From: Beroe ovata
Taxonomy: Eukaryota > Ctenophora > Nuda > Beroida > Beroidae
DNA: 23,593 nt
Direction of reading: 5' to 3'
Assembly (NCBI GenBank): GCA_946803715.1
Contig: CAMPET010000130.1
Span: 92,719 to 116,311 of the forward strand
Within the stretch, counting starts at the first letter, position 1; each line of letters starts with the position of its first letter. A program made the position numbers and the translations under genes. Shown here piece by piece: positions 373-21,854 of this stretch. The notes beneath the pieces were generated by a model. It did not search any database, was not told the origin of the DNA, and saw only the letters and a list, made by a program, of their open reading frames with translations.

Positions 373-3300
373 GTGGAGTTCCGATGGTAAATTCTTCGCT
401 ACAATCGCCGGTGACAATCTCTGTATCTACTCTACTCCTTCAATGAAGTTACTGGATAACAAGAAGATCACAGTACAGAACATCAGGTCTGTCATGGTCG
501 ATACTTTTCACATCAATGGTCCATCAAGTATTTCTCTCATTTTACTGGATGATTCCCAAATATCTGACATCATTAGACATGAAAAGTTATTATAACGTAT
601 TCTTCTCTCAAATCGTTTGTATAGGTTTAACTCACAAAAGCATTTTTGACGACAGTTTCTAGACCCAAAGCAAAATAAAACTAGCCACATACGATACTTA
701 ACGGCAGAAAAAATATGTTCTCAAGTCTGACATCGGTAGCCGAAAATTCTTAGCTGACAAATTCCGTTGTCATCTGTCCATTATGAGATGAGACTCCCTG
801 CGCGACTGGTTTCCCAGTATCAGGGCCAGCTTTATCCATGAGATTACGGCAGACTTTTGTCACCTGTCGACATAGCTGTGACACCTGATTGGAAATGACT
901 TTGTTGAGGATAAGCGGATTAAGAACAGATGTAAAGGGTATGAGGACGAAAGAGAAGACAGGGTAGAGGCTGGTAGCATCCATGACCTCTGCTGCGTGAA
1001 GCATACAAATCACGAGGAAAACAGACCAACAGAACACATCAGTAACGATGATCAGCATGATCTTGCGTTGCATGGCGTTATTCCGGGCCTTGATCTGTTT
1101 GCAGTTAGCAGACACTGCTAGTGGGGCAGATGCGTCCCGTGTCGACCTCCATATACCGAGGTAGGATATCGTTATGATGAGAAGTGATGCAGCAAGAAAT
1201 GTCAGAATCGTCCACACAAAGAAACTTTGGGGGTCTCTCACCGTTACCAGATATTTGAAAAGACAAACTCCGTCGTTCCCGTAGAAGTGTAATCTCTTCG
1301 GCCAGATGACAGTGTAATCGCTGGAAAACATATCCGCTGCGAGTGATCTTAAGATAGACCAAGTTGGATAACTCTTCAGGACTGATCTAATTCGGCCGTA
1401 GTAAGCTCTCACTATTTCAAACAGCTGGGATTTATCAGAACTCCCGATAAATAGAGGGTTGTCGACATCGTAGACCAATCCATTGACAAAGAAATCCTCC
1501 AGTGGGGCAAGTAATGGACAAATTGAGATGGCCAGGGATATGGCTATAATGGTACATACCAACAGGATCAATTTGCCTAAATATTTCCTAGTGATGGGTT
1601 TGCTTGGAGCGAAATCCTGTTTTATAACCTGGAATCTGTTGACACTCAGCACAGTCATGGACAGAATGGAGATACACGTTGCAAAGGTGCTCAGCACGCC
1701 TATCAGCGAGCACTCATAACTAGTGAGCCAACTCATCTGCTTCTGACAATACGAGCCACCGTAAATCAGGTCGTAGGTGAGAACAACCAGCACATAGACC
1801 CCAGTCAGGAGGTCTCCAGTGTTGATGAGTAGGAGAAATGTTGTGTTGAATAGAGTCCTCACTGCCTTACAGCTGGCTAGGTTTGATATGTGTTTGGGTA
1901 TGGTCATGAGGTTATAGATAGCCGCCTGAATTCCCATGAGCCAAGCCATCACCTCGATCGGTTGCATCGATATGATCTCCTTGTTACACACTTCATTACA
2001 TTCATCAGTATAGTCCATACAGTCGATATGGTCGTCACAGAACATCGATAGGAAGATTAGCTCACGTGACTGTTCACATATGAAATGGTTGTGACAGGCA
2101 ATCTCATCCGACCAATCCCCGCAGTCATCCACAATGTCACACACCTTGTCGAACGTCACACACTTGAGATTATTGCAAACGAATACCTCGTTATGGAATT
2201 TCTCCTTCCTTCGCAACAGAAATGTCAGACTTCCGTTCTCATACTCCAAATAGGTGTATATCCTATTGGGATACTGGCCGGTACACGCATTATGGGTCAG
2301 TAAACGCTGCACCGGGCACGCAGACCGATCGCACATTCCAGCACAGTTGAGGGACACATAGAACATTCCATACATGTGTCGGCAATCCACCGTTACACCC
2401 ATCGGTGTGATGAATGTTATGTGGCTTGATAGTCCCAGAACCGGATCACCATATCTGGATGCTCGGTATGCCATACATCCAAGTCCATACCTCAGGTGGA
2501 GCAAGCTTTTGAGTCCCGGGAAACACTCAAAAAAGTAGTATCTACCAAACTTCTTGATTGGGGTTGTCATCACATTGGCCTGTCGACGAGATTTTTCACA
2601 GACACTCTTCTCATTTCCACATGTGTCTATCCTATCGCACAACTTGTCAAAGTCGACAAAATCCCCACTTTCCCGGCAATGGTAAACTTCTGTACAACTT
2701 TTGCTCCTCTCCAAGGTTACAAACCGGTGTGTGCGGCCAGAACCACACGAATACCAGTCATCTAGTTCATCGTCACCGGACACACAATCGGCTACTCCGT
2801 CATGGACCCAATCCATCGGGATGGGGAGAGATAGCTCCCTCACGAAGTTGTAGTATCGGATGCATTTTTTCTGTGTGAGGCCCATACAAACGGGATCCAG
2901 CTCGTCTGATTTGTCCATACAGTCAGTGAAACCATCGCATAGCTGGTGTTTGTGTATTTTGCAGGACACAGACGGTTTGACACATTCCTTGTCAATTCTA
3001 TTGTCACAAAGCGCTTCATTTGGCTCAATGTGCTTGTTACAGATCACAACTTTTGCCACGGTTGATGGAAATCCGCCGATATCGCATTTAACCCCTAATT
3101 TTTGGGGATCACTGCAATTTGTCTGGTCCATATAGTTCTCGCAGTATGGAGTGTCGTAGGAATCGATGACAGGCCAGAACCGTACCCTACCCACTGGACC
3201 ACACCTTGTAAAATTGAACAAAGGTACGGTTCGCCTTGGCGTGAGCTTGGTTTGAGGGTAACGTTGGCAAAGTGAGCCATCTCTACCCTCCTCAATCATT

Positions 3301-6300
3301 TCGCTGTCACAGATCGACTCGTCATATCTATCATGACAGTGTGGTACACCGTCACAGATGTGTAGAATAGCGATGTACGTCGCCCCATTATCACAGTAAA
3401 TCCCGTAGTTGTACCCCTCACACGCCCGCTCATCTATGCAGAGTGGACTGCCTCTTATTCCCAAACAGTAACCATCACACTGACCCTTTATGTCGGTGAA
3501 AGTCGTATTGCTCTGCAGGAATTCATTGATGTGCTGGAAGCACACGTTCGTGTCTCTGATGATGTGGGTGACTGCAGGGTTATCGTTGATGATATGGTAG
3601 TAGAAGTTCTTCTTGTGCCCCCCGTCTTTACAGATATACCCACACGGGTAGTCGTTGTCATCATCGAGTAGAGCTCGCCTGGTACTCAAAACACACGCCT
3701 GGTAGAACTGAGAATTGGAGGGTGGACATATCTGGGAAACAGTAGTATAGCTGGTGTTGGCAAATCTCACCTTTCCCACGGTGTACGTGACAGATTTGTT
3801 CATGCTGAGGCATGAAAAGATAGTGGATTCGTCATTTGGTACTTCTAGCGTCATGAAACCGTTACGTGGGGCGATCAGCAGCCGGCCGGTTTCCGGCTCT
3901 TCAGCAAGGATCGCGGTGATTGCCATCCCAATGATCGCTACCGTCAGCATTCTCAGACTCACCTACCTATGTCACCAATGTCCTCGTCTGTTGCTCCTCA
4001 AGAGAGCCGCCGGTTCTCACTTCAATACTGATGAGAAATCGTGCATCAATGTAGCTGTTGGGTGAATGGAAAGAGAGACGTGCTCTTATAAACAATCTCG
4101 TTGAGGTGTCAGAAATGTCACACTGCAAACATTGTAGTTTCTCTTGTTCGATTTTTTGTTTCTACAAAATTTGTAACATCTCGCGAGCAGTTACTGCTAT
4201 GTAACATGTAGCCGAGAACTATTGACTATTGGAGAAGAGTTTATTGAGAGAGCTCAATGGTAAATGGAGTAGCGCTATGCAGTCAATAGTTCATTTACTC
4301 CATGCCACAGCACCACAATCATGTTATTGTTATTACATATCAAACTTGTCGCCTCCCTAAAAGTGACGTTCGCAACCCGAGCAGTAGCACATTAAACAGT
4401 TAACACGAGAATCGTATATGTGACATATGTAAACACGTAACACCAACACGTAAGTGTAACACGAGTATGTAACACATGTGTAACACACGCAGGGACTTCG
4501 TGTGGTGCCCGTGTGAGAACTGGATCGCATACTGGCAGAGTGAGAATAAGGACATCCCTGCTCGGGTCACCATCATGGCAGTACCCAGCTGTGAGCCCAT
4601 CTCAGCCAAGAACCTCTTCAACGTGAACAACATCGAGATATTCTGGCAGCAGGCGGGGAATTACCTGGCTGTCAAAGTGGACCGATCGATCAAGAACAAA
4701 AAGGTAAAGCTACGAAAATGGATGACAACTTTCTGCCATGATTTGGATATTCTTTAGACTCAACTCTCTCATACTCAGGAGTCTGAAAATGTGTTTGAAA
4801 TTTTCCGACTAAGAGAAAAGGACATACCCGTAGAGAACTTTGAAATCAAGAGTAAGTACAACCAATCTCGCTTTCCCCTTGCCAATTCGCATGATCTAGT
4901 GCTCACTGTTCACTGTTCACTGTTCACTCTAGTCTGCCGCCGCCGACCTAGTGTCCTCCGCCCTAGTAGTGTCCGGCCCCCGATCCGACATACTGTTTCC
5001 CTGTTCCCCTTGTACCCATCTCTCACGCAGGTAAAGTCATGTCGCTCCACTGGGACCCTAAAGGTCCACGGTTTGCAGTGATCCAGGGGGACCTGGGACG
5101 AACTGATGTCTCATTCTACAAAATTGGAGAGAAGATTCTTCCGATCGGCAAAACTCTGACCAACAAGAAGTGTAACTGTATAAAGTGGAGTCCACTAGGT
5201 ATCATTTCCTTCTTTGCTTCATACAATGATGATGAAATCGGGCATTGTAGTACAAATGGCACTATACACTTATGTAATTTGAATCGTTCTGTTTAGGTCA
5301 GTATTGTGTGTTAGCCGGTCTCAACCACATTTCTTTTGACGGAGTTCTCGAGTTTTGGGATATCGGCGGAGACACCCCAACTCTCATGAACGAGTCGAGT
5401 CACTTCATGGTTAGTAAGAATAACAGTTGTTTAACTGATGCCAAAACTGGGCATATTCTATTGGAATCAATTAACAATAGACTCACTGATGTGATAACCC
5501 CTATTGCCCCAACCCCTCCCCCATCTCGATTCCTATACCGGGAGAAGAAAACACTCCAATCCCTCGCCCAGGTCACTAACATCGCATGGGACCCGACCGG
5601 GCGTTATGTCTGCTCTTCCAACACATACGGTGGACACTCCGTCGAAAATGGCTACTGCATGTGGAACTTCCAGGGTAAGTCTCATGATAGAGCCTTTTCG
5701 GGATCATAGTTTCGGTTGATCAATGTTCGATCGCGGCCATTTGTCACGATGTTCTTGATGTTTGTGACGTTAACCTCCGCAACAATTCAGGATCCAAGCT
5801 GTTCGAGGCTAGTCTGGAGAGTTTTATCCAATTCCAATGGAGGCCAAGACCGCCCACATTGCTCAAAGATGCCGACTACAAGGCTATCAAAAAGAATATG
5901 AAGTCCTACACTCGTGATTTCGAGATCAAAGACAGACTGTCTCAGTCTAAGGCATCGAAGGTATGAGAGAATCTGCTTAGAGCGCAGCACATATACACAC
6001 ACAAACACACACACACACACATTCCAACTATCAAGACACTCATTATTTGGGTGTCTTCGAGAAGTAAAGTAACAGACAGTACAATGCAACCTAGACGTTA
6101 CTGTTGAAATGTAATCTGGAGTCTACTGCCTAGCACTATAGATACATGTCTCTTGTAGGTTAAGTGTAAACTACACACAACAAAAACTACGTCTAGTGAT
6201 CTTCAGGCGTCTGCAAACTCGCTGTATTACNTCTCAGACTGCAGTACACAGAACTGAGGTCCGATGCTGTGGATGAAGAGTACGTTGAGGAAACAATCGA

Positions 6301-7459: not shown

Positions 7460-8220
7460 TCAGGAGCACTTCCATACTGCTATCGCTACACTTCCTCCGA
7501 AAAACATGTATAGGAGATTCTTTGTTTCATAGGTGATCTCAAAACCGAATCCTTCTCCCACAATAACATGCCAGCTGCTACCAAACTTCTTGTCCATATT
7601 CTCCTTGATCATCTTTGAAGCAGCCTAGGGGGAGACATTTGATGAAAATAAGAAATCAGAGGGCGTTATAGATCGTATAACAACCCCTGTTCGATAAACT
7701 AAATTTGGAAAGGAATTTACCTCGTTGCTGTTGGCAAACTTTTCACAAGCCGTTACACACAATTCCATTGCTTCTGTTCTCATTTCCTCTGCCATGTCAG
7801 AGTGCTGAAAATGTAAGGATGAAATTGGGATGAGGCTAGTATCGCGCGCAATCACTGCTGCGCGCGCCGCGTAACGAAACTATCAGTAGTGGACGCGCGA
7901 CGCAACTTTCTATACGATTTTGACTCCGACATAGCAACAAGCATAGCAACAAAAATCATGTGAACTACTTATTTGAACGGTGAATAATTTCGAACAAAGA
8001 CAATTGAAATTGTCGCGAAAAACAGATACAAATGCTTGTTTGTGTACAATTGACGTGCAGAAGAGTTTCTGAAAACTCTATTTCGAAGAATTATCGTTTG
8101 CTCATGCCAGAAAGATAATAAATTCAGTTCTGAGTATTGACTCACTCTGATGAGCGGAAAACTGTGAAGTCTCCTGTGATCATTCTTATCCCCTCCTTCT
8201 TTCTTTTCATCGTCTGCCAT
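7460..8220 (-). CDS. DNAL4: dynein axonemal light chain 4
   Basis: Three minus-strand exons: 8146-8220 (ATG at 8220), 7721-7804 and 7460-7624 (TGA at 7460-7462). Joined, they encode 107 residues, close to the 105 of human DNAL4. Donors are GTGAGT and GTAAAT; acceptors end TTTTCAG and CCCTAG, all in phase 0. DNAL4 is an LC8-family light chain of axonemal outer-arm dynein, a homodimeric hub for the motor in cilia and flagella. Recognisable segments are RRLHSFPLIR, MELCVTACEKFANSNE, KKFGSSWHVIVGEGFGFE and the C-terminal AVWKCS. The N-terminal 17 residues are charged and variable, as usual in this family. Intron 1 (7805-8145) contains a CpG-rich patch at 7847-7900 and two ATAGCAAC boxes. No defect is seen. 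The assignment is firm. Confidence 0.95.
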
Positions 8221-10740: not shown

Positions 10741-11260
10741 GCGCGGTCGTGGTGAGTACAAGCAGATCTGTCCACGATCGCGATTCGCGCGCGCGCGTTG
10801 AAATCTTCGACCAGCTACAAAGGTTATAATTATGATTGATAGCAGCCAAACTCTGCTTCAAAGACATTTGCTACATTGCGCGCGCGGCGACGTCATGACA
10901 TTTGAGTCATGTTACATGTTCAATGTTTGTAATTTGATTTGTTCTGTGCACTGCAACTGCACATGTTGCGCGCGCCCTTTATTTCACTCATCCGATCACC
11001 GCTGTCCGTGGTACTAGTTCGAAGTGTTGTCGCGTGAAGAACGCGGACAGCGGAGCTGCAGCGCCCGCGCCCGATATCAGCTGACCTCTGTTAATTCTCG
11101 CGCACGGCGCGCGCGCCTTCGATGAAGGTGCACTGATCTTGTCTGGCGATGCTAGACCGCTGATGCAAGCCGCGAAGCGGCTTGCGTCTGAGAATAAGTT
11201 TGCAATTGCGCCGCGCGCGCGCAAAACGAAATTCTCGACAGGGTCTATCATCGATCGACA
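10740..11260. promoter_or_regulatory. CpG-rich island, candidate promoter region of the MAX gene
   Basis: About 500 bp dense in CGCGCG runs in otherwise AT-rich surroundings, lying between the DNAL4 start and the first recognised MAX exon. The MAX exon at 11933 begins after a splice acceptor, so at least one untranslated or N-terminal exon must lie upstream, plausibly here. No TATA box or definite start was recognised. Part of the richness is due to a dispersed repeat at 11140-11256. Confidence 0.35.
11140..11256 (-). repeat. dispersed GCGCGC-core repeat, copy 1
   Basis: In minus orientation it runs from ATCGATGATAGACCCTGTCGAGAATTTCG through a GCGC core to GCATCAGCGGTCTAGCATC and CAGACA, the same order as the copy at 21774-21854. 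It additionally holds a near-perfect hairpin: GCAAGCCGC (11165-11173), a GAA loop, then GCGGCTTGC (11177-11185). It is probably a short non-autonomous element; no coding content. Confidence 0.75.
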
Positions 11261-11480: not shown

Positions 11481-11943
11481 CACTGTTTTTTGCCAGCGCG
11501 CCATCATTGAAGGCCATGCCAAATTAGTGAACAGGCAATCATGATTGAAGGCTATATATATGCGGATGCAAAAAACAAAGACAGATAATGTCTTTCATTG
11601 GAAATCTTTACCCTCGCCAGCACATTGCTGAAGTTCTTGCCGAAACAACTGCTTATTGACGCATGTATTATGCACAATTATTAAGCAATTGGTGTGATTC
11701 TGTTCAAGATATCACAAGAATCTTATGATGAGTAACTGCAACTAACTTCATTCAATCTAGAATTGGTATACAAATATGTACCGTATTGCTATTTCGATCA
11801 ATTGGTGGTTCCCATTACACCAAAAGTTGACTGAGTTATGATGGACTGTCCATAGGTATTGCTGTAAATACTACTGTGCATTTTATTCTATTACTGATCA
11901 AAACATTGCTCTTATTGATCATAACATTGTAGGTGTTCGGGAC

Positions 11944-14900
11944 ATGAAAATGGACTTACCAATTGATGACATTGAGCTTGTCTCAATGGCTGCTGTCGAG
12001 AATGAGGTATTAAATGTCATGCACTAAAAACTTAGCTCTGGGATAATTTGATGACCCTTCTACAGGATTCAAGAGCATCTTTAACTTCATATTGGTCTAT
12101 CAAATTAAATTCAGGAACAGAAGCGTGCCCATCACAATGCCCTGGAAAGGAAGAGGAGGGATCACATTAAAGACAGTTTCTACTGCTTGCGAGATGCAGT
12201 TCCCCAGCTGAGAGGGGAAAAGGTATCTAACTTGGAGTTTTGCCGTGCAGCATAGTTGAACTTTGTTTTAGTCTTCATGCAAAATAAATTTTTTATGTGC
12301 ATTAAGATGTTTTGATCAAGTTATCACAAAACTTTCAACAGGCTTCAAGAGCCCTTATTTTGAACAAGGCCACTGATTATATCAAGTGTCTCAAGTCCAA
12401 GAACATGTGTCATAAAAAAGAAATTGATGATATCAAGAAACAGAATGATGTTTTAGAACAAGAAAGTAAGAAAACTCTTATAATACATCTTATGCATTCA
12501 GTTCAAGTCGATTCAATTATCCAATAAGCTCAATATACCTTATATTTTACATTATTATACATTGCAGTTGATAAAATAATCAAGTTGAACAATTCCCTTG
12601 GAAAAGAGAGGATAGAACTTGTTGGTGATGACTTTGTCAAAGTTCCCAACCTTGAATCTGCCCCTCCAACATTCAGGTAGGTTTCAATTGATTAATTGAT
12701 TGATTCTGAAGTATCCACCAAATTTATTGGTATCTAACTCTTACTCCTCAATCTCAGTCAGACAACAGAAAAGGATACTGGACCATTTTTAGGGAAGAAG
12801 GAACTCGTGCCGGCAGGTGAAAAACCAAAAGGAACAGAACAGTGCCACACTGTTGTTATTCCATCAGCAGAAGAAGTTACAAAGAAAGAAAAAGATGCCG
12901 CAATTGCAATGGTGTCTGAAACAGAGAAGAAAGTCTCTACTGTAAAGGGTGAAGTGATGAAGACTCTACCTCAAGCAACAACTATTGTGTAAGCAATTGA
13001 GTGATTCATTCTTTCACCTGTTCAGAATTCAGGGACTAATCTTCAAAATCTAGATTTCCAATGTACAGTACACCCTTACAAACATTTGAAAGCATGCAAA
13101 TATATTGCGATTGTTTTTCAGGAAAACTGCTTTGAACGAAAAGTCGACTGGCAAGATTACTCAAGTTAACTTGTCCAATCAACAGCAAAAGTTGACGTTT
13201 GCTAAGTAAGCCCAATTCTTTCGTCTCTTCACCTTCTTCAAACCATTCTTGTTTCTGAATTCTGTATGGTAATGCTGATCGAATACTCTGTAGGGCTGGA
13301 GCTAAGCAGGGTGGCACAATTCAAATTCCAGCGTCAGCTCTAGCAAAGGCTCTACCAAACGGATTCAAAAACGTCACGGCTATCTATAAGCAAAGTACGT
13401 AAGAACTGATATTATTCAAAATATGAATGCAATTGCTGAACTAATATAGGTGTTTATCAATTATGTTTCAGCTGGGAACAACAAGCCCATCAGACTGCAA
13501 ATCATAACTCAAGGGGGTAAGGCTGGAAAGGCATCACTCATTGCTGTTAAAGATAGCACGCAGGAAAAGAAGTCAGTAGATAGGCCGGGAGACGTGGAAA
13601 AGAAAGAGATCACTAAAGTGGGAAGCGTAGTAAAAGGCGATAGATTGAGTGATGCTTCAGCTGCAACGAACGGTGTTGAAAAGAAGAAAGTGGCTGAAAT
13701 AATCACCGAAGTAACTGCTGAGAAGTCTGAAACAGAAAACCAAGAAACAGCCAAACCTGACGAGAAACCTGCTGAAAAGAATAATGAGAATTCGAATTTC
13801 TCTCAAAAAATGTCGGATAAAATGCGAACACCACAAAATCAGCCGCTCTATGCGCGGCACCGTCCTCTTCACGCTAGCCCCGCTGTTGATAAAGCAAAGA
13901 CAGACACAGACGCTGAAAAGACTGTCGGTGATAAGAAGTCGGCTACAGAGGACTCTGGTAAGAGTAAGGGTGGAGATGATGATAAGAAAACTGTCCGGTC
14001 TCTGCCTCGAGATCCGAGTGCCATGGCGACGATAAGCGAGTCTGAGCTAGCATACCTAACTCGACCAGTCAACCCAGGTAATTCTCTAGGTACATCATAC
14101 GTGCTCTTTCTCTACTCTGCCTTTCACTGCTGATAATCACTGATCCTAACGCAACGTAGCAATCCTAGGTTTTGAGGTTACTGACAGCGTATCGGAGAAG
14201 CAGGGCAAAGACAGGAACCATGGAAAAATAGAGCATGGCAACATCCCCATCCTCTACAAAGGTAAATTTCATTCATTGGTGTTACCGTTCCATGTTACGT
14301 GTTTTTCTTCTGACCGTCTTTTCGGTGAAGCGTCTTCTATGAGACACTTATTGTTCTGAGACACTCGTTATCCCAGGGTCGCTACTCTCTGACCGAGATA
14401 AAGAGGATGAAGAAGAGGGCGAATCACCGCACAAACAGATCCTGTACGGAGCTAGAGCCATGGATGTGAGTTGTTAGATATCTTATCGGAGGGCGTCTTT
14501 CCTCACTTCTCTATTTCGTGATTATAAAAGTTGACCGTCAACATGTAGAGCACTGATGACTGTAGAGTCAGCGCGGACTGGTTCACATTTTGTGACTGGT
14601 TCACATATATTTAGTTGGCTGATTCACATTTTAGTACACTGGCCACACATATATTTAGTTGTTATGTTATATCTTGTTACAGGGATCAAGACCGTTTGCC
14701 TGTCACATCTGTGGAAAGAGTTTCAACATGCTTTCCTCCCTCAAAGTTCACGAGCACATTCATGTGCCAGTGAAAAAGAAGCCATTCCCCTGCGATCTAT
14801 GTCACAGGTGAGCACCAACTTGGATCAATGATATTTGGTAATTCAATGAGAGCCACGATTCCTGATAGTAGATTTAGTCGATTTTCGTTGGAAATTATCC

Positions 14901-16122
14901 AGCATATGCCCGTCCCGTTAATTGTTTCTGATAGATTCCTATTTCAGATCATTCATGACGCTGCGAATTCTGAGTCAACACAAAGAGAGTCATTACGGCA
15001 GGATTTCCTCATTCCATCGACAGGTAGACAGTTCATTCTGTCGTTTTTTGCGGAGGGAATGCTTCACTGTGATTGGTTTCACGGCTAGAAAGACCATGTT
15101 ATGTTACTATTGTGTTGCTGATTGTATTATAGTGTTACCCCTCCACAGGCATCTCTAGGGAAGAGGAATCGGGTCAGCTTCGCTACTCACCCCCAAGATA
15201 AGAACGGTTACACCGATCATGGTAAATCCATTGTATACCAACTTATTACAGGACGTGTTGTCTATCGTATAACAACAACTTTGGTATAACAACTGTTGTT
15301 TTCATCCGTTGTATAACATCTACCCAGTTCTCATTACATACATTAACAACACGACTCAATATCCTGCTGTTCTCAGGTTCTGGTACGAAGTCTCCGCGGA
15401 CAGCTATAACCAACATTTTCCATGTCCGTGCCAGCAGCCCAGGGGATATGTTGCCTGAGAAGAGTTTCACAGCCACTCCTGCTGCGTCCAACAAGACCGC
15501 TCCAAAAACGACCTCTTCAACAAACAAAAACAGCACCCAGGTGAATAGTTTTCGAATAATGTCGAACCTCTACACCATTTTTGGCGATGTTTTCGTAATC
15601 TCAACAATGATGTCTGACTTCAGCGGATCTTACCAACGACCCACGTTCGCCAAGGCCAAGTTATTGTTCAGGCGAGGCCTGGGGCGGGAGCCACCGCTTA
15701 CAAAGTCCGGACAAAAGCAGGTATGGGTAAAATTGTGCTCCCGATAGATTTGAACTTGTTAATTTGAGTGACTGGACTGAACAGTGCTGCAGGGCGCTAG
15801 GGAAAATAATGTCGTGTACAATGCGCGCTAGATGCACGTGACACCCATTTGCTAAAATGTTAACAACAACACTTTTCTTTGCACGCTGCGCTGTGAAAGT
15901 CTCATATTGATAGTACTTTCCGCGCGCGTAATTTGATCGATCGATCGAACGGCAAAATATTCCTTTCAAGAAGAAGCAGGACCCAAAAAACCTATCTTTT
16001 CAGAATGTGAAGAGGCCCGGAATTTCGGGTTGAAGGTTGTTCCCCTGAAACGCTCCCCATCGACCTCTGAATTGGAGTACACTTCCCTCAAGGAAGAAAC
16101 AGAGCAACTTTCACTGCAGTGA
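11944..16122 (+). CDS. MAX: MAX-like bHLH-leucine-zipper protein extended by a long linker and two C2H2 zinc fingers
   Basis: Sixteen exons: 11944-12006, 12115-12222, 12342-12465, 12568-12676, 12758-12988, 13122-13205, 13294-13394, 13472-14077, 14160-14261, 14377-14465, 14683-14807, 14948-15023, 15149-15221, 15377-15540, 15624-15720, 16004-16122. Every junction is GT/AG and in phase; total 2271 nt, 756 residues. Residues 22-110 are [23 protein letters not shown], with His28, Glu32 and Arg36 for reading CACGTG, then helix 2 and a zipper with KKQN at 89-92, as in human MAX. Residues 135-539 are a charged, Lys/Glu-rich linker. Two canonical C-X2-C-X12-H-X3-H fingers follow at 546-566 and 576-596, joined by a 9-residue basic spacer. 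Known MAX proteins are about 150-160 residues, so the extension is exceptional. The exon at 11933 follows an acceptor, so the true start could lie further upstream; the first ATG in this exon is used. Confidence 0.82.
12342..12680 (+). other. alternative end of a short MAX isoform through intron-4 retention
   Basis: If the intron starting at 12677 is not spliced, the frame reads AGG then TAG at 12678-12680. The product would have 135 residues and end soon after the leucine zipper, near the size of ordinary MAX. Spliced, the same AG joins T of the next exon (AGT) and continues to the zinc fingers. The stop is seen in the sequence; use of the isoform is inferred. Confidence 0.4.
14578..14662. 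repeat. short imperfect tandem repeat in MAX-gene intron 10
   Basis: CACATATATTTAGTTG occurs twice with a spacing of about 42 bp, together with repeated GACTGGTTCACAT and TTCACATTTT segments. It is simple intronic repeat sequence between exons ending 14465 and starting 14683. Confidence 0.5.
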
Positions 16123-16747
16123 CGAATGTTCATTTGATAAGAACTACGAATAATTCATTCCCGATTCCTTTCTAGAGGATTGCTGATTGATTCAGAGATA
16201 CATATGACAAGACGAATCGCCAGACACTATAGAACCGATCCAAGTCGATACATGATAACAGTTTCAGTTGTTTCAGAATTACGATGTTCATCAGCCCTCA
16301 AAACATATGTTCGAACGGCCTTACCATTTCGATTAACGGATACTTTTCAACCGTGTTCAGGCGATCCAGTGAATCATGATCGGGCAATATATGACAGTGT
16401 TTATCTATAATACTTCTTTAAATTTTATCATTTAAATCTGCAATTTCACTTCATGTACAAAGAATTCATCGAATTCTGAAAGTCTGAAAGAAAGATGGAA
16501 ATTCTCAATACATACATAAAACTTTGCAGCATATTCTCTGAAACACACAATCCGGTTTATTGAACAATATGAAGGTCAACTCTTGAAATACCATGCAACT
16601 ACAATAACAAATGCGTTCTCATTCCATAAAAACGAACAGGAAGTCCATCCATTAATTCGTATGAATTTGACACTAAGAAAAGAAATAATACAGCAATTTC
16701 ATTAAAAAGAAGTTATAAACGGGGAATACAAAATAAAGCGCGTCCCC
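16123..16747. other. convergent 3' region between the MAX and TECR genes
   Basis: AT-rich, with no convincing exon on either strand; an open frame at 16180-16410 has no recognisable content. The 3' untranslated regions of both genes must lie here and may overlap. Confidence 0.6.
16556..16561 (-). terminator. candidate polyadenylation signal of TECR
   Basis: AATAAA on the minus strand, about 190 bases past the TECR stop codon. It is the canonical hexamer at a usual distance; no transcript evidence is available. Confidence 0.4.
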
Positions 16748-19003
16748 TCAAATGATGAACGGAATCATGGCTTTTCGGTTCTTTGGGTAGTCCAGAAACT
16801 CCTTCTTGTAATTTCGGTGTTTCCCAAGGGCCCACTGTAACATTTGTGCCGCACCAACAATTGCAAATAGACCAGCTGAAGAAAGTATGGTTGAAGTAGC
16901 TCGCATAATCCTGTTTCGAGATCAATATCAAACTAAATGGCAGTCCAGGTAGTTATAGACAGTACTTCTACTCACAGAAGAAAGTTTGGGTAAGAATAGT
17001 GAACCCAATCCAGCTGACAGCCTCGTAAGTGTAGTTCGGGCAAGAAACCAAGTTGAAGAGCAAACACAGTGGGTTTCCATTTGGCATGGGGATTACTCTG
17101 ACTTTACTGCCAGCTGGTCGCATGTTCTTGAACGCAAGGTGAGTTGAGAAGTTCCCTACCTCTCCAAACTGAAAGGGGTTCAGTCGTTTTTATTAAACTA
17201 GCTACTCTTCAACGATGAATAAGTTTTGACCACGTGAAAAACAAAATAGATCACAGTGCAATGGAACACAGTTGGCGGAACATACCAGGTAGATACCAAG
17301 TCCAATATAGATCTGTGTTGGGGTACCTGAGAATTGGAGCGAGTTAAAACCCATTCACAACCTGAATTGGATCCAACGTCTGCGTTAGTTACGCGCCCCG
17401 GCCCGATCGACGCGATATGATTGCGCGCGCGAATTCTACTAGCTCCGCGCGTGTAAGAAAGCGTTCTTTATTACGGGTTAATTACATCGCCGCCTCCATC
17501 AAGTTTTTTTCTAGAGAAATCTTGAAAATGCGCAGGTATGTTCTAGAAATGGAATTTGCTTCAAATACAAAATTCCGACAAATGAACGATTCAAGCCTAT
17601 CTTACTTGGGACAGTGTAGAGAGGATGGTTGATGAAGTACGATATCAATGCAGAGAAACCCCTGTGAATTGTCGGTATCACAGTCGGAAAAGCCAGTTAA
17701 CGATTTATTCATTTTCATGATCATTTTCATGATTGAAATTGTGTGAGGACCAACCAGTAATAGGTGCAGTTTTTCAACAGATTCTGAATAGGCATGGTTG
17801 CCTTGCTAAACCGGTGAATGAAGATCGTTTCCAACACTCGTTTCACGTAGTGACCAACGTAGCAGAAACACGCCAATCTAAAAGTGAGCGCGATCAAATG
17901 TCACGTCATCCAGGAATATTGATGCACTCAGAATGGCCATGCTCATGAAATGTACTTCACTCACTTCTGAACATCATTATGAGAAACTCCAGTGTTCTGA
18001 GGGTATATCCAGTCACAGTCGCTTGACAAGTAGAAGAGAAGATAGGTAAATATCGGTCCTATGTACTCGGCAAGGAACACAGTTGCCCAACCAATTTGGG
18101 GACCTGAAATAACATGGTTATGTACAGTCATTGGATATTGATCAACCCTTTGAAATCCTGGCGTGATTTGCGCTTGATTTTCATCACTTGCTTATTGCAA
18201 GATTTTGCAACAGTCCCTGTGTGTGTGTGTCATTATCAAATCCCTTCAACATTTGCAATTGCATTACCTGACTCACAGTGTAATATGATCCCCTGCAACA
18301 ACATGTTTACACACATACACACAGTGTTTATCGTTCCATTTTTATCGGAAAACACATATTTCACACGGGAAACGTTTGGCTGTCAGAGGAAGTTCTTGAC
18401 AAATCATGGATACAACCAAATTTTACCAGTTAATTATGATCTGAACGAATGGCACGGAGGCAAATCAACCCACCTAGATCCTTGAAGTAGAGCACAGAGC
18501 CGTCAGTAAGGGTCTCAATGTCGCCTATCTTTACGTCATCAGACAATGTCTTCTCTTTGAGCGAAAGTTTGTAACTCATGCGACTTGGGTACAGCCGACT
18601 GTCTGGAAGTGGGGCTGTTGATGGAAACAGGCAGAAAAAAATAGAAAAGAAAAGGACCTAGGATCGGATCTTTTTATAGGATGGGCCCTGCATTTTTAGG
18701 TGTTACAAACCGCTTTCAACTGATAAAAATTGGATATCTGCCAAGTTAACTAACTTTCTCGGACATGTTTTTTCTTGACTTCGAGAATAGTGTCAGTCTT
18801 CACAACATCTACTGTAAGGAGGGTTTTGCCCGTTCGTGCATTCGCAATATCGATCTGAACAGTAAAATTATAGTTAGAAATGTTCTTTAATGGGAACAAA
18901 TATGGTGGTCTGAAGATGGAGATTTACATCAAAAATTCGCGAAAGTTAAAACAATTCATCGAATTAGGCTTACTACACGGAGAAGCATGGAACTTACCTT
19001 CAT
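16748..19003 (-). CDS. TECR: very-long-chain trans-2,3-enoyl-CoA reductase
   Basis: Nine minus-strand exons: 18998-19003 (only ATG AAG), 18755-18854, 18474-18614, 17965-18103, 17755-17877, 17606-17661, 17286-17326, 16976-17168, 16748-16875. All phases agree; the total is 927 nt, 308 residues, the same length as human TECR. The enzyme performs the last, NADPH-dependent reduction of the very-long-chain fatty-acid elongation cycle in the ER membrane (yeast Tsc13). The N-terminal ~80 residues are the ubiquitin-like part; the rest is the multi-span steroid-reductase-like domain. Recognisable segments include GPQIGWATVFLAEYIGP, YYW/NHPLYT, GNFSTHLAF, RPAGSKVR, VSCPNYTYE with Tyr248 at the expected catalytic position, and KKEFLDYPKNRKAMIPF. 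For the last exon the acceptor at 16876-16877 was chosen because it restores family spacing between TQ and QM. The intron 18104-18473 and the intron 17327-17605 contain only simple or CpG-rich sequence. Confidence 0.95.
17393..17455. repeat. CpG-rich patch in a TECR intron, resembling the dispersed GCGCGC repeats
   Basis: CGCGCCCCGGCCCGATCGAC followed by ATTGCGCGCGCGAATTC. In reverse orientation the GAATTCGCGCGCGCAAT part resembles the GAATTTC-ATTGCGCGC core of the repeats near 22.1 kb. It is too short to delimit with confidence. Confidence 0.3.
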
Positions 19004-21773: not shown

Positions 21774-21854
21774 GATCGATGATAGACCCTGTCGAGAATT
21801 TCGTTTTGCGGCGCAAACTTCGCAGCTTGCATCAGCGGTCTAGCATCAACAGAC
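21774..21854 (+). repeat. dispersed GCGCGC-core repeat, copy 2
   Basis: Begins ATCGATGATAGACCCTGTCG, continues GAGAATTTCGTTTTGCG, and ends GCATCAGCGGTCTAGCATC then CAGACA. It matches the reverse complement of 11140-11256 over nearly its whole length but lacks that copy's internal hairpin. Confidence 0.75.

Follow-up and report, generated by a model that had tools for sequence, protein, structure and literature searches.

MAX, with which MYC, MXD and MNT proteins all pair, is otherwise a small factor and is not known to carry further DNA-binding domains. The zinc-finger protein MIZ1 works with MYC/MAX, but it is a separate POZ protein and offers an analogy only. Passages of two published reports describe one Max in Amphimedon (PMC5064789, PMC1828162). 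Among the papers listed by searches of the open-licence PubMed Central literature, a MAX protein with zinc fingers is described in no title or abstract opening.

The window analyzed here, by which we mean the whole stretch of 23,593 nucleotides, contains what on sequence grounds is a real, unusual MAX gene, in which the MAX-linker protein is well supported and the zinc fingers are predicted. We consider it probable that this gene is spliced into one 756-residue protein comprising a bHLH-zipper, a long linker, two C2H2 fingers and a tail.

Gene structure and MAX identity

The exon chain was rebuilt from the sequence at 11944-16122 on the forward strand. It comprises 16 exons and 15 introns, all of the GT-AG type, with phases that agree throughout and no internal stop codon. 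The total is 2,271 nt, i.e. 757 codons including the stop, or 756 residues, which bears out the exon number, splice sites, phases and codon count of the preliminary description. The locus is uninterrupted within its contig (C130). In the following list, P0001 is a related protein and C114 a contig carrying a related zinc-finger gene, both described below.

Exon 1, 11944..12006 (+): start codon and acidic N-terminus of MAX; aligns with the start of P0001
Exon 2, 12115..12222 (+): basic region, helix 1 and loop
Exon 3, 12342..12465 (+): helix 2 and first part of the zipper
Exon 4, 12568..12676 (+): last part of the zipper, then the beginning of the tail; read-through leads to an in-frame TAG at 12678
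Exon 5, 12758..12988 (+): linker; the part upstream of the first in-frame ATG (12909) is conserved with P0001
Exon 6, 13122..13205 (+): linker; weak coding score of its own
Exon 7, 13294..13394 (+): linker; opens a 41-residue identical block (13310-13509 across intron 7)
Exon 8, 13472..14077 (+): linker; conserved blocks at 13825-13863 and 14008-14067; read-through leads to a TGA at 14131
Exon 9, 14160..14261 (+): alternative in-frame acceptor 9 nt downstream
Exon 10, 14377..14465 (+): acidic stretch; in-frame ATG at 14460, 6 nt before the exon end
Exon 11, 14683..14807 (+): C2H2 finger 1 (14701-14763) and start of finger 2
Exon 12, 14948..15023 (+): remainder of finger 2; negative coding score of its own
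Exon 13, 15149..15221 (+): tail; the preceding phase-0 intron matches the C114 gene
Exon 14, 15377..15540 (+): tail
Exon 15, 15624..15720 (+): tail; start uncertain, 15624 or 15672
Exon 16, 16004..16122 (+): tail and TGA stop

Other features of the window are as follows; a search of the window against Rfam gave no match.

750-3962 (-): single-exon receptor of 1,070 aa that combines an LDL-receptor class A repeat with a 7TM domain of the rhodopsin type
4970-5706 (+): gene exons that match Pfam eIF2A
5691-5963, downstream of these exons: a WRPRPPTLL segment that recalls eIF3B or eIF2A
7628-7879 (-): weak Dynein_light match (22.9 bits, cut-off 29.1)
11227-11256 (+) and 21774-21803 (-): identical 30-base sequence, the copies 10.5 kb apart (chance expectation 0.00), likely a dispersed repeat; the first copy precedes the MAX start by about 700 bp and has GC-rich direct and inverted repeats nearby
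11930-11943: acceptor-like site with TAG, ending 11 bases before the MAX start codon; it could mark an intron in the 5' untranslated region or a site that accepts a leader
16751-17189 (-): Steroid_dh exons (16751-16921 and 16971-17189), tail to tail with the MAX gene; they probably belong to a trans-2-enoyl-CoA reductase (TECR) gene

H28, E32, R36 and the pair Q91-N92 are all present in the predicted protein, as had been claimed. These positions correspond to human MAX numbering, and H28, E32 and R36 are the E-box contact residues; these three are invariant in a 21-sequence alignment (A1). The Pfam HLH profile matched residues 24-74 with 53.6 bits. When the first 134 residues were compared with solved structures, MAX was the best match (5.5e-31, 5eyo), followed among other families by MYC (2.3e-16), USF2 (1.9e-8) and MITF (2.5e-4); MAX chains stood at the top, and no MXD or MNT chain was present among the matches listed. 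Over the 82 residues of the bHLH-zipper, 79 are identical in P0001 and 55-56 in each of the next seven proteins listed, with lower counts for P0006 from a sea anemone (53), P0010 from Dysidea (48) and a mollusc MYC (32).

A second MAX-type locus was not found in the 77.8-Mb assembly with the full-length protein as a query, for which 59 of 80 candidates were scored. Among the same 59 scored candidates, residues 1-136 matched, besides their own locus, only C16 (34%) and C390 (37%), which by eye look MITF-like and USF-like. The gene is thus the sole MAX-type locus found in the assembly by sequence comparison, and since the predicted protein carries two C2H2 fingers, it would be a variant rather than a standard MAX. 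HLH stretches number 18 in the assembly, the MAX locus included. One on C172 is presumably MXD/MNT-like and one on C146 MLX-like, judged by eye against known motifs; two similar bHLH exons (C67:51009-51137 and C63:12876-12998) are possibly Mondo-like or divergent members of the MYC network. A mollusc MYC query matched only MAX and, weakly, the C172 protein, and the Myc_N profile gave no match in the assembly, as was also the case for its control. Wnt, which is animal-specific, gave matches above cut-off on C66, C140, C30 and C64; these mark the source as an animal, whether or not it is a sponge, as the preliminary description had supposed. A Wnt-like C-terminal match at C64:262688-262834 (-) lies within an open frame of 6,033 residues.

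From the MAX domain into the linker

The full protein was used to search 5.8 billion proteins, with scoring confined to the 7,985 candidates that had the most words in common with it. Five proteins were obtained, and the sole close relative among them was P0001, an unnamed JGI protein of 470 aa from a contig of 1,432 bp; it represents a cluster of 14 sequences and is the one cluster sequence that was compared. That contig is too short for seven introns, so P0001 is likely RNA-derived. Queried against viral and prokaryote contigs, P0001 found no relatives.

P0001 aligns with the predicted protein from its first residue to residue 476 of the latter, with 257 identities in 493 positions, and its linker blocks match those of the window protein in identical order. 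Residues 246-286 (41 residues), which span the junction of exons 7 and 8, are identical in the two proteins. In the part of exon 5 that precedes the ATG at 12909, 10 of the 17 residues after the junction are conserved with P0001, as read from the alignment. Ahead of exon 5, the frame closes at 12735 and contains no ATG. The conservation ahead of this ATG, together with the closed upstream frame, indicates that translation enters the linker from MAX. Gene splits forced between 12678 and 12909 lost 15-18 bits with gene-boundary costs and 9-12 bits without them. The MAX-to-linker join is well supported at the sequence level, with independent backing from P0001. A poly(A) site between exons 4 and 5 had been named in the preliminary description as a finding that would speak against one gene; on the forward strand, neither AATAAA nor ATTAAA occurs from 12283 to 16701.

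The C-terminus of P0001 is NNAGNLRNLFRRAHF. Read-through of intron 8 in the window begins with GN at the same point as the end of P0001, and the match to P0001 extends 11 nt past the donor. The end of P0001 thus looks like a retained intron 8 at a conserved intron position. Since P0001 ends in this apparent intron, it does not test the fingers.

An AlphaFold2 model of P0001 shows confident bHLH-zipper helices and predicted helices near residues 427-451. Its linker is mostly of low confidence, with 240 of the 470 residues under a pLDDT of 50 and a mean pLDDT of 51-57 for the conserved linker block. The best match of this block among solved structures, a spidroin with an E value of 0.23, is not meaningful.

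Predicted attachment and probable origin of the zinc fingers

The 81-bp intron 4 had been regarded as the critical gap between the MAX domain and the fingers. In our analysis the attachment of the fingers is decided elsewhere, along exons 8-9-10-11 (14077/14160, 14261/14377 and 14465/14683). The related argument, that so small an intron speaks against separate genes, proved insufficient alone, because the stops at 12678 (TAG) and 14131 (TGA) allow shorter products. What stands of the reading of a MAX with fingers is the MAX identity and, through P0001, the continuity of MAX and linker, while the finger join is read from splice structure, coding signal and an exon module shared with C114.

Coding scores were trained on the receptor ORF plus exons 1-8, and compared with overlapping open windows taken from stretches of the window that we ourselves chose as presumably non-coding. 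Exons 9, 10 and 14 scored 8.5, 10.9 and 14.3 bits, which none of 749, 1,028 and 156 open null windows reached, respectively. Exon 11 scored 6.4 bits (reached by 1 of 379) and exon 13 7.0 bits (2 of 1,498). The signal was moderate for exon 15 (4.0 bits, 17 of 814) and exon 16 (4.3 bits, 12 of 485), weak for exon 6 (1.1 bits, 200 of 1,185) and negative for exon 12 (-4.0 bits, 958 of 1,384). None of the three frames of exon 15 contains a stop, and against another background one of the alternative frames scored 12.7 bits and the frame of the model 5.3 bits.

A simple gene parser, to which the exon chain was not supplied, was run with intron penalties of 8-16, which replaced an over-splitting penalty of 3. 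The links 14077-14160, 14261-14377 and 14465-14683 were made in all ten runs at penalties 8-16. After training on the receptor plus exons 1-8 (five runs), the parser predicted a single gene that begins at 11944 and includes the exon 4/5 join. It split exon 5 at penalties 8 and 10 and in no run reproduced exon 12 exactly; exon 15 started at 15672 in four runs and in the fifth was merged with exon 14, exon 16 being replaced. With training on the receptor alone, none of five runs used the exon 4/5 join, one placed MAX and the fingers in the same gene, and three predicted no MAX exon. At penalty 3, an extra 18-nt exon appeared between exons 10 and 11 in 3/3 runs, and receptor-only training gave two genes. 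When a two-gene split was forced between 14080 and 14683, 9-11 bits were lost with gene-boundary costs and 2-5 bits without. The linker-to-finger join is thus a supported prediction from gene structure, coding signal and the C114 exon module.

These results bear on whether the chain could be a misassembly or a chance series of exons. There is a single assembly, and the exons were originally picked to keep the frame; nevertheless, exons 1-8 are confirmed by the independent relative P0001, the parser recovered the central links unaided, and the sequence is contiguous in C130. We therefore regard an artefact of this kind as barely credible.

A second explanation is that the locus holds two genes or cistrons, i.e. 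one gene for MAX and linker that stops in intron 8, followed by a zinc-finger gene that begins in exon 10 (ATG at 14460) or later and has its own promoter or arises when a shared precursor is trans-spliced. P0001 stops at the position of intron 8 and could itself be a complete protein without fingers, an in-frame ATG (14460) sits 6 nt before the end of exon 10 and ahead of the finger exon, and a trans-spliced leader is reported for a glass sponge in a passage of PMC10282587. However, exons 9 and 10, which score strongly as coding in the shared frame, would then be untranslated. Introns 8, 9 and 10 measure 82, 115 and 217 bp and contain neither AATAAA nor ATTAAA, and in the best forced splits exon 10 stays with MAX while the second gene begins within exon 11, so that finger 1 is broken or dropped. 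The Wnt matches on four contigs also argue against a glass sponge as the source, since life without Wnt signalling is reported there (PMC5684314), and a glass-sponge origin was set aside. On balance, we judge two genes unlikely, and a single spliced gene remains our preferred reading.

Each of the two fingers has the form C-x2-C-x12-H-x3-H (residues 546-566 and 576-596) with all four zinc ligands in order. The earlier claim of two C2H2 fingers in exons 11-12 is borne out by these intact ligands, though the Pfam C2H2 models match residues 544-566 and 574-596 below their curated cut-offs (zf-C2H2, 22.2 bits against 25.2; zf-C2H2_4, 26.4 against 27). The fingers are separated by VPVKKKPFP, a spacer of 9 residues that is not of the canonical TGEKP type; the usual spacer between C2H2 fingers has 7 residues. 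This length makes classic two-finger reading of DNA doubtful, and a protein contact or a loose DNA contact seems at least as likely as classic base reading.

Within the genome, and besides its own locus, the finger pair matched C114:209794-210003 best (57% over residues 540-611, 1.9e-21), followed by C82 (1.8e-6). In the reverse search from the C114 pair, the MAX locus came first after the query itself (58% over 43 residues, 2.5e-14), ahead of another part of C114 (4.7e-11) and C44 (7.2e-11). The C114 match is the final finger pair of a long gene for a zinc-finger protein. Compared by eye, both genes have a phase-0 intron immediately ahead of finger 1, at positions that differ by one residue. 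Past finger 2, another phase-0 intron comes after ...RQ in both, and the next exon starts with Ala; the MAX gene has an additional intron within finger 2. The match of the finger pair, together with the shared phase-0 introns, points to a copied exon module, and the fingers were likely gained as a module shared with the end of the C114 gene, whichever the direction of copying. On C114 (L017), the poly-C2H2 gene is followed about 1.7 kb downstream by an RPL39-like gene.

The origin of the fingers also bears on a third explanation, in which there is one transcription unit, the finger-less MAX-linker protein is the working product, and the fingers are rarely included in a minor form of little function. 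Read-through of introns 4 and 8, and likewise of 5, 6 and 7, yields proteins that are shorter but complete and include the entire MAX domain, and P0001, the representative of its 14-sequence cluster, is finger-less. The intact Cys and His residues and the match to C114 in both sequence and exon borders, however, argue for selection on the finger form. We consider it quite improbable that the fingers are such a rarity.

Proposed protein and comparison with known proteins

In the 756-residue protein, the linker is likely disordered. With the confident bHLH-zipper helices and the low-confidence linker of the P0001 model, we envisage a MAX dimer that sits on an E-box and is connected to the fingers by a flexible tether. 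The residues of the bHLH-zipper match a working MAX, and their conservation suggests binding to CACGTG-type E-boxes, either by a MAX homodimer or by MAX together with partners, e.g. the MXD/MNT-like protein of C172. The finger pair, on a tether of ~440 residues, would provide a further contact with DNA or a cofactor, and dimers containing this MAX would then favour those sites or complexes that suit the fingers as well. The in-frame stops at 12678 and 14131 make shorter products possible. Retention of intron 4, with the TAG at 12678, would yield a MAX-only form of 135 residues, and retention of intron 8, with the TGA at 14131, a finger-less form of 493 residues, whose use is suggested by P0001.

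More tentatively, and with less than even confidence, we propose that in this animal lineage the hub of the MYC network was rebuilt, in that the sole MAX took up a zinc-finger exon module from another gene, and that every dimer may carry a second binding head, switched on or off by retained introns. If the single MAX of the animal does bear fingers, the hub, and not its partners, could determine which targets the network as a whole selects. The gene would then also allow one to trace how a hub transcription factor acquired a finger module through exon copying.

The preliminary description had suggested looking for the same order of bHLH-zipper and C2H2 fingers in other proteins. This order was absent from the 22 distinct proteins retrieved by database searches, none of which combines MAX with C2H2; the C2H2 motif occurs among them only in P0002, an ordinary fish zinc-finger protein without MAX. 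Zinc-finger Pfam domains were absent among the matches listed (120 of 1,660).

Four of the retrieved proteins, namely P0010 (Dysidea avara sponge, labelled MNT-like, 584 aa), P0004, P0011 and P0013, have a MAX-type bHLH-zipper followed by several hundred residues, but, in contrast to the MAX-finger protein, are without a C2H2 motif, and kinship between their tails and the linker was not detected (hhalign probability 0.1%). P0001 differs from the window protein in that it ends at the position of intron 8 and is without fingers. Conversely, the poly-C2H2 gene of C114 has many fingers but, over the 8 kb analysed, no MAX domain, and its last two fingers are not separated by an intron. With MAX itself, the predicted protein shares a bHLH-zipper that is 67-68% identical (55-56/82) to the closest animal MAX proteins listed, E-box contact residues that stand at human MAX numbering, and a start at the same point. 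It differs from MAX in its length, 756 residues against about 150-200, and in what follows the bHLH-zipper, namely the long linker, the predicted pair of C2H2 fingers and the tail.
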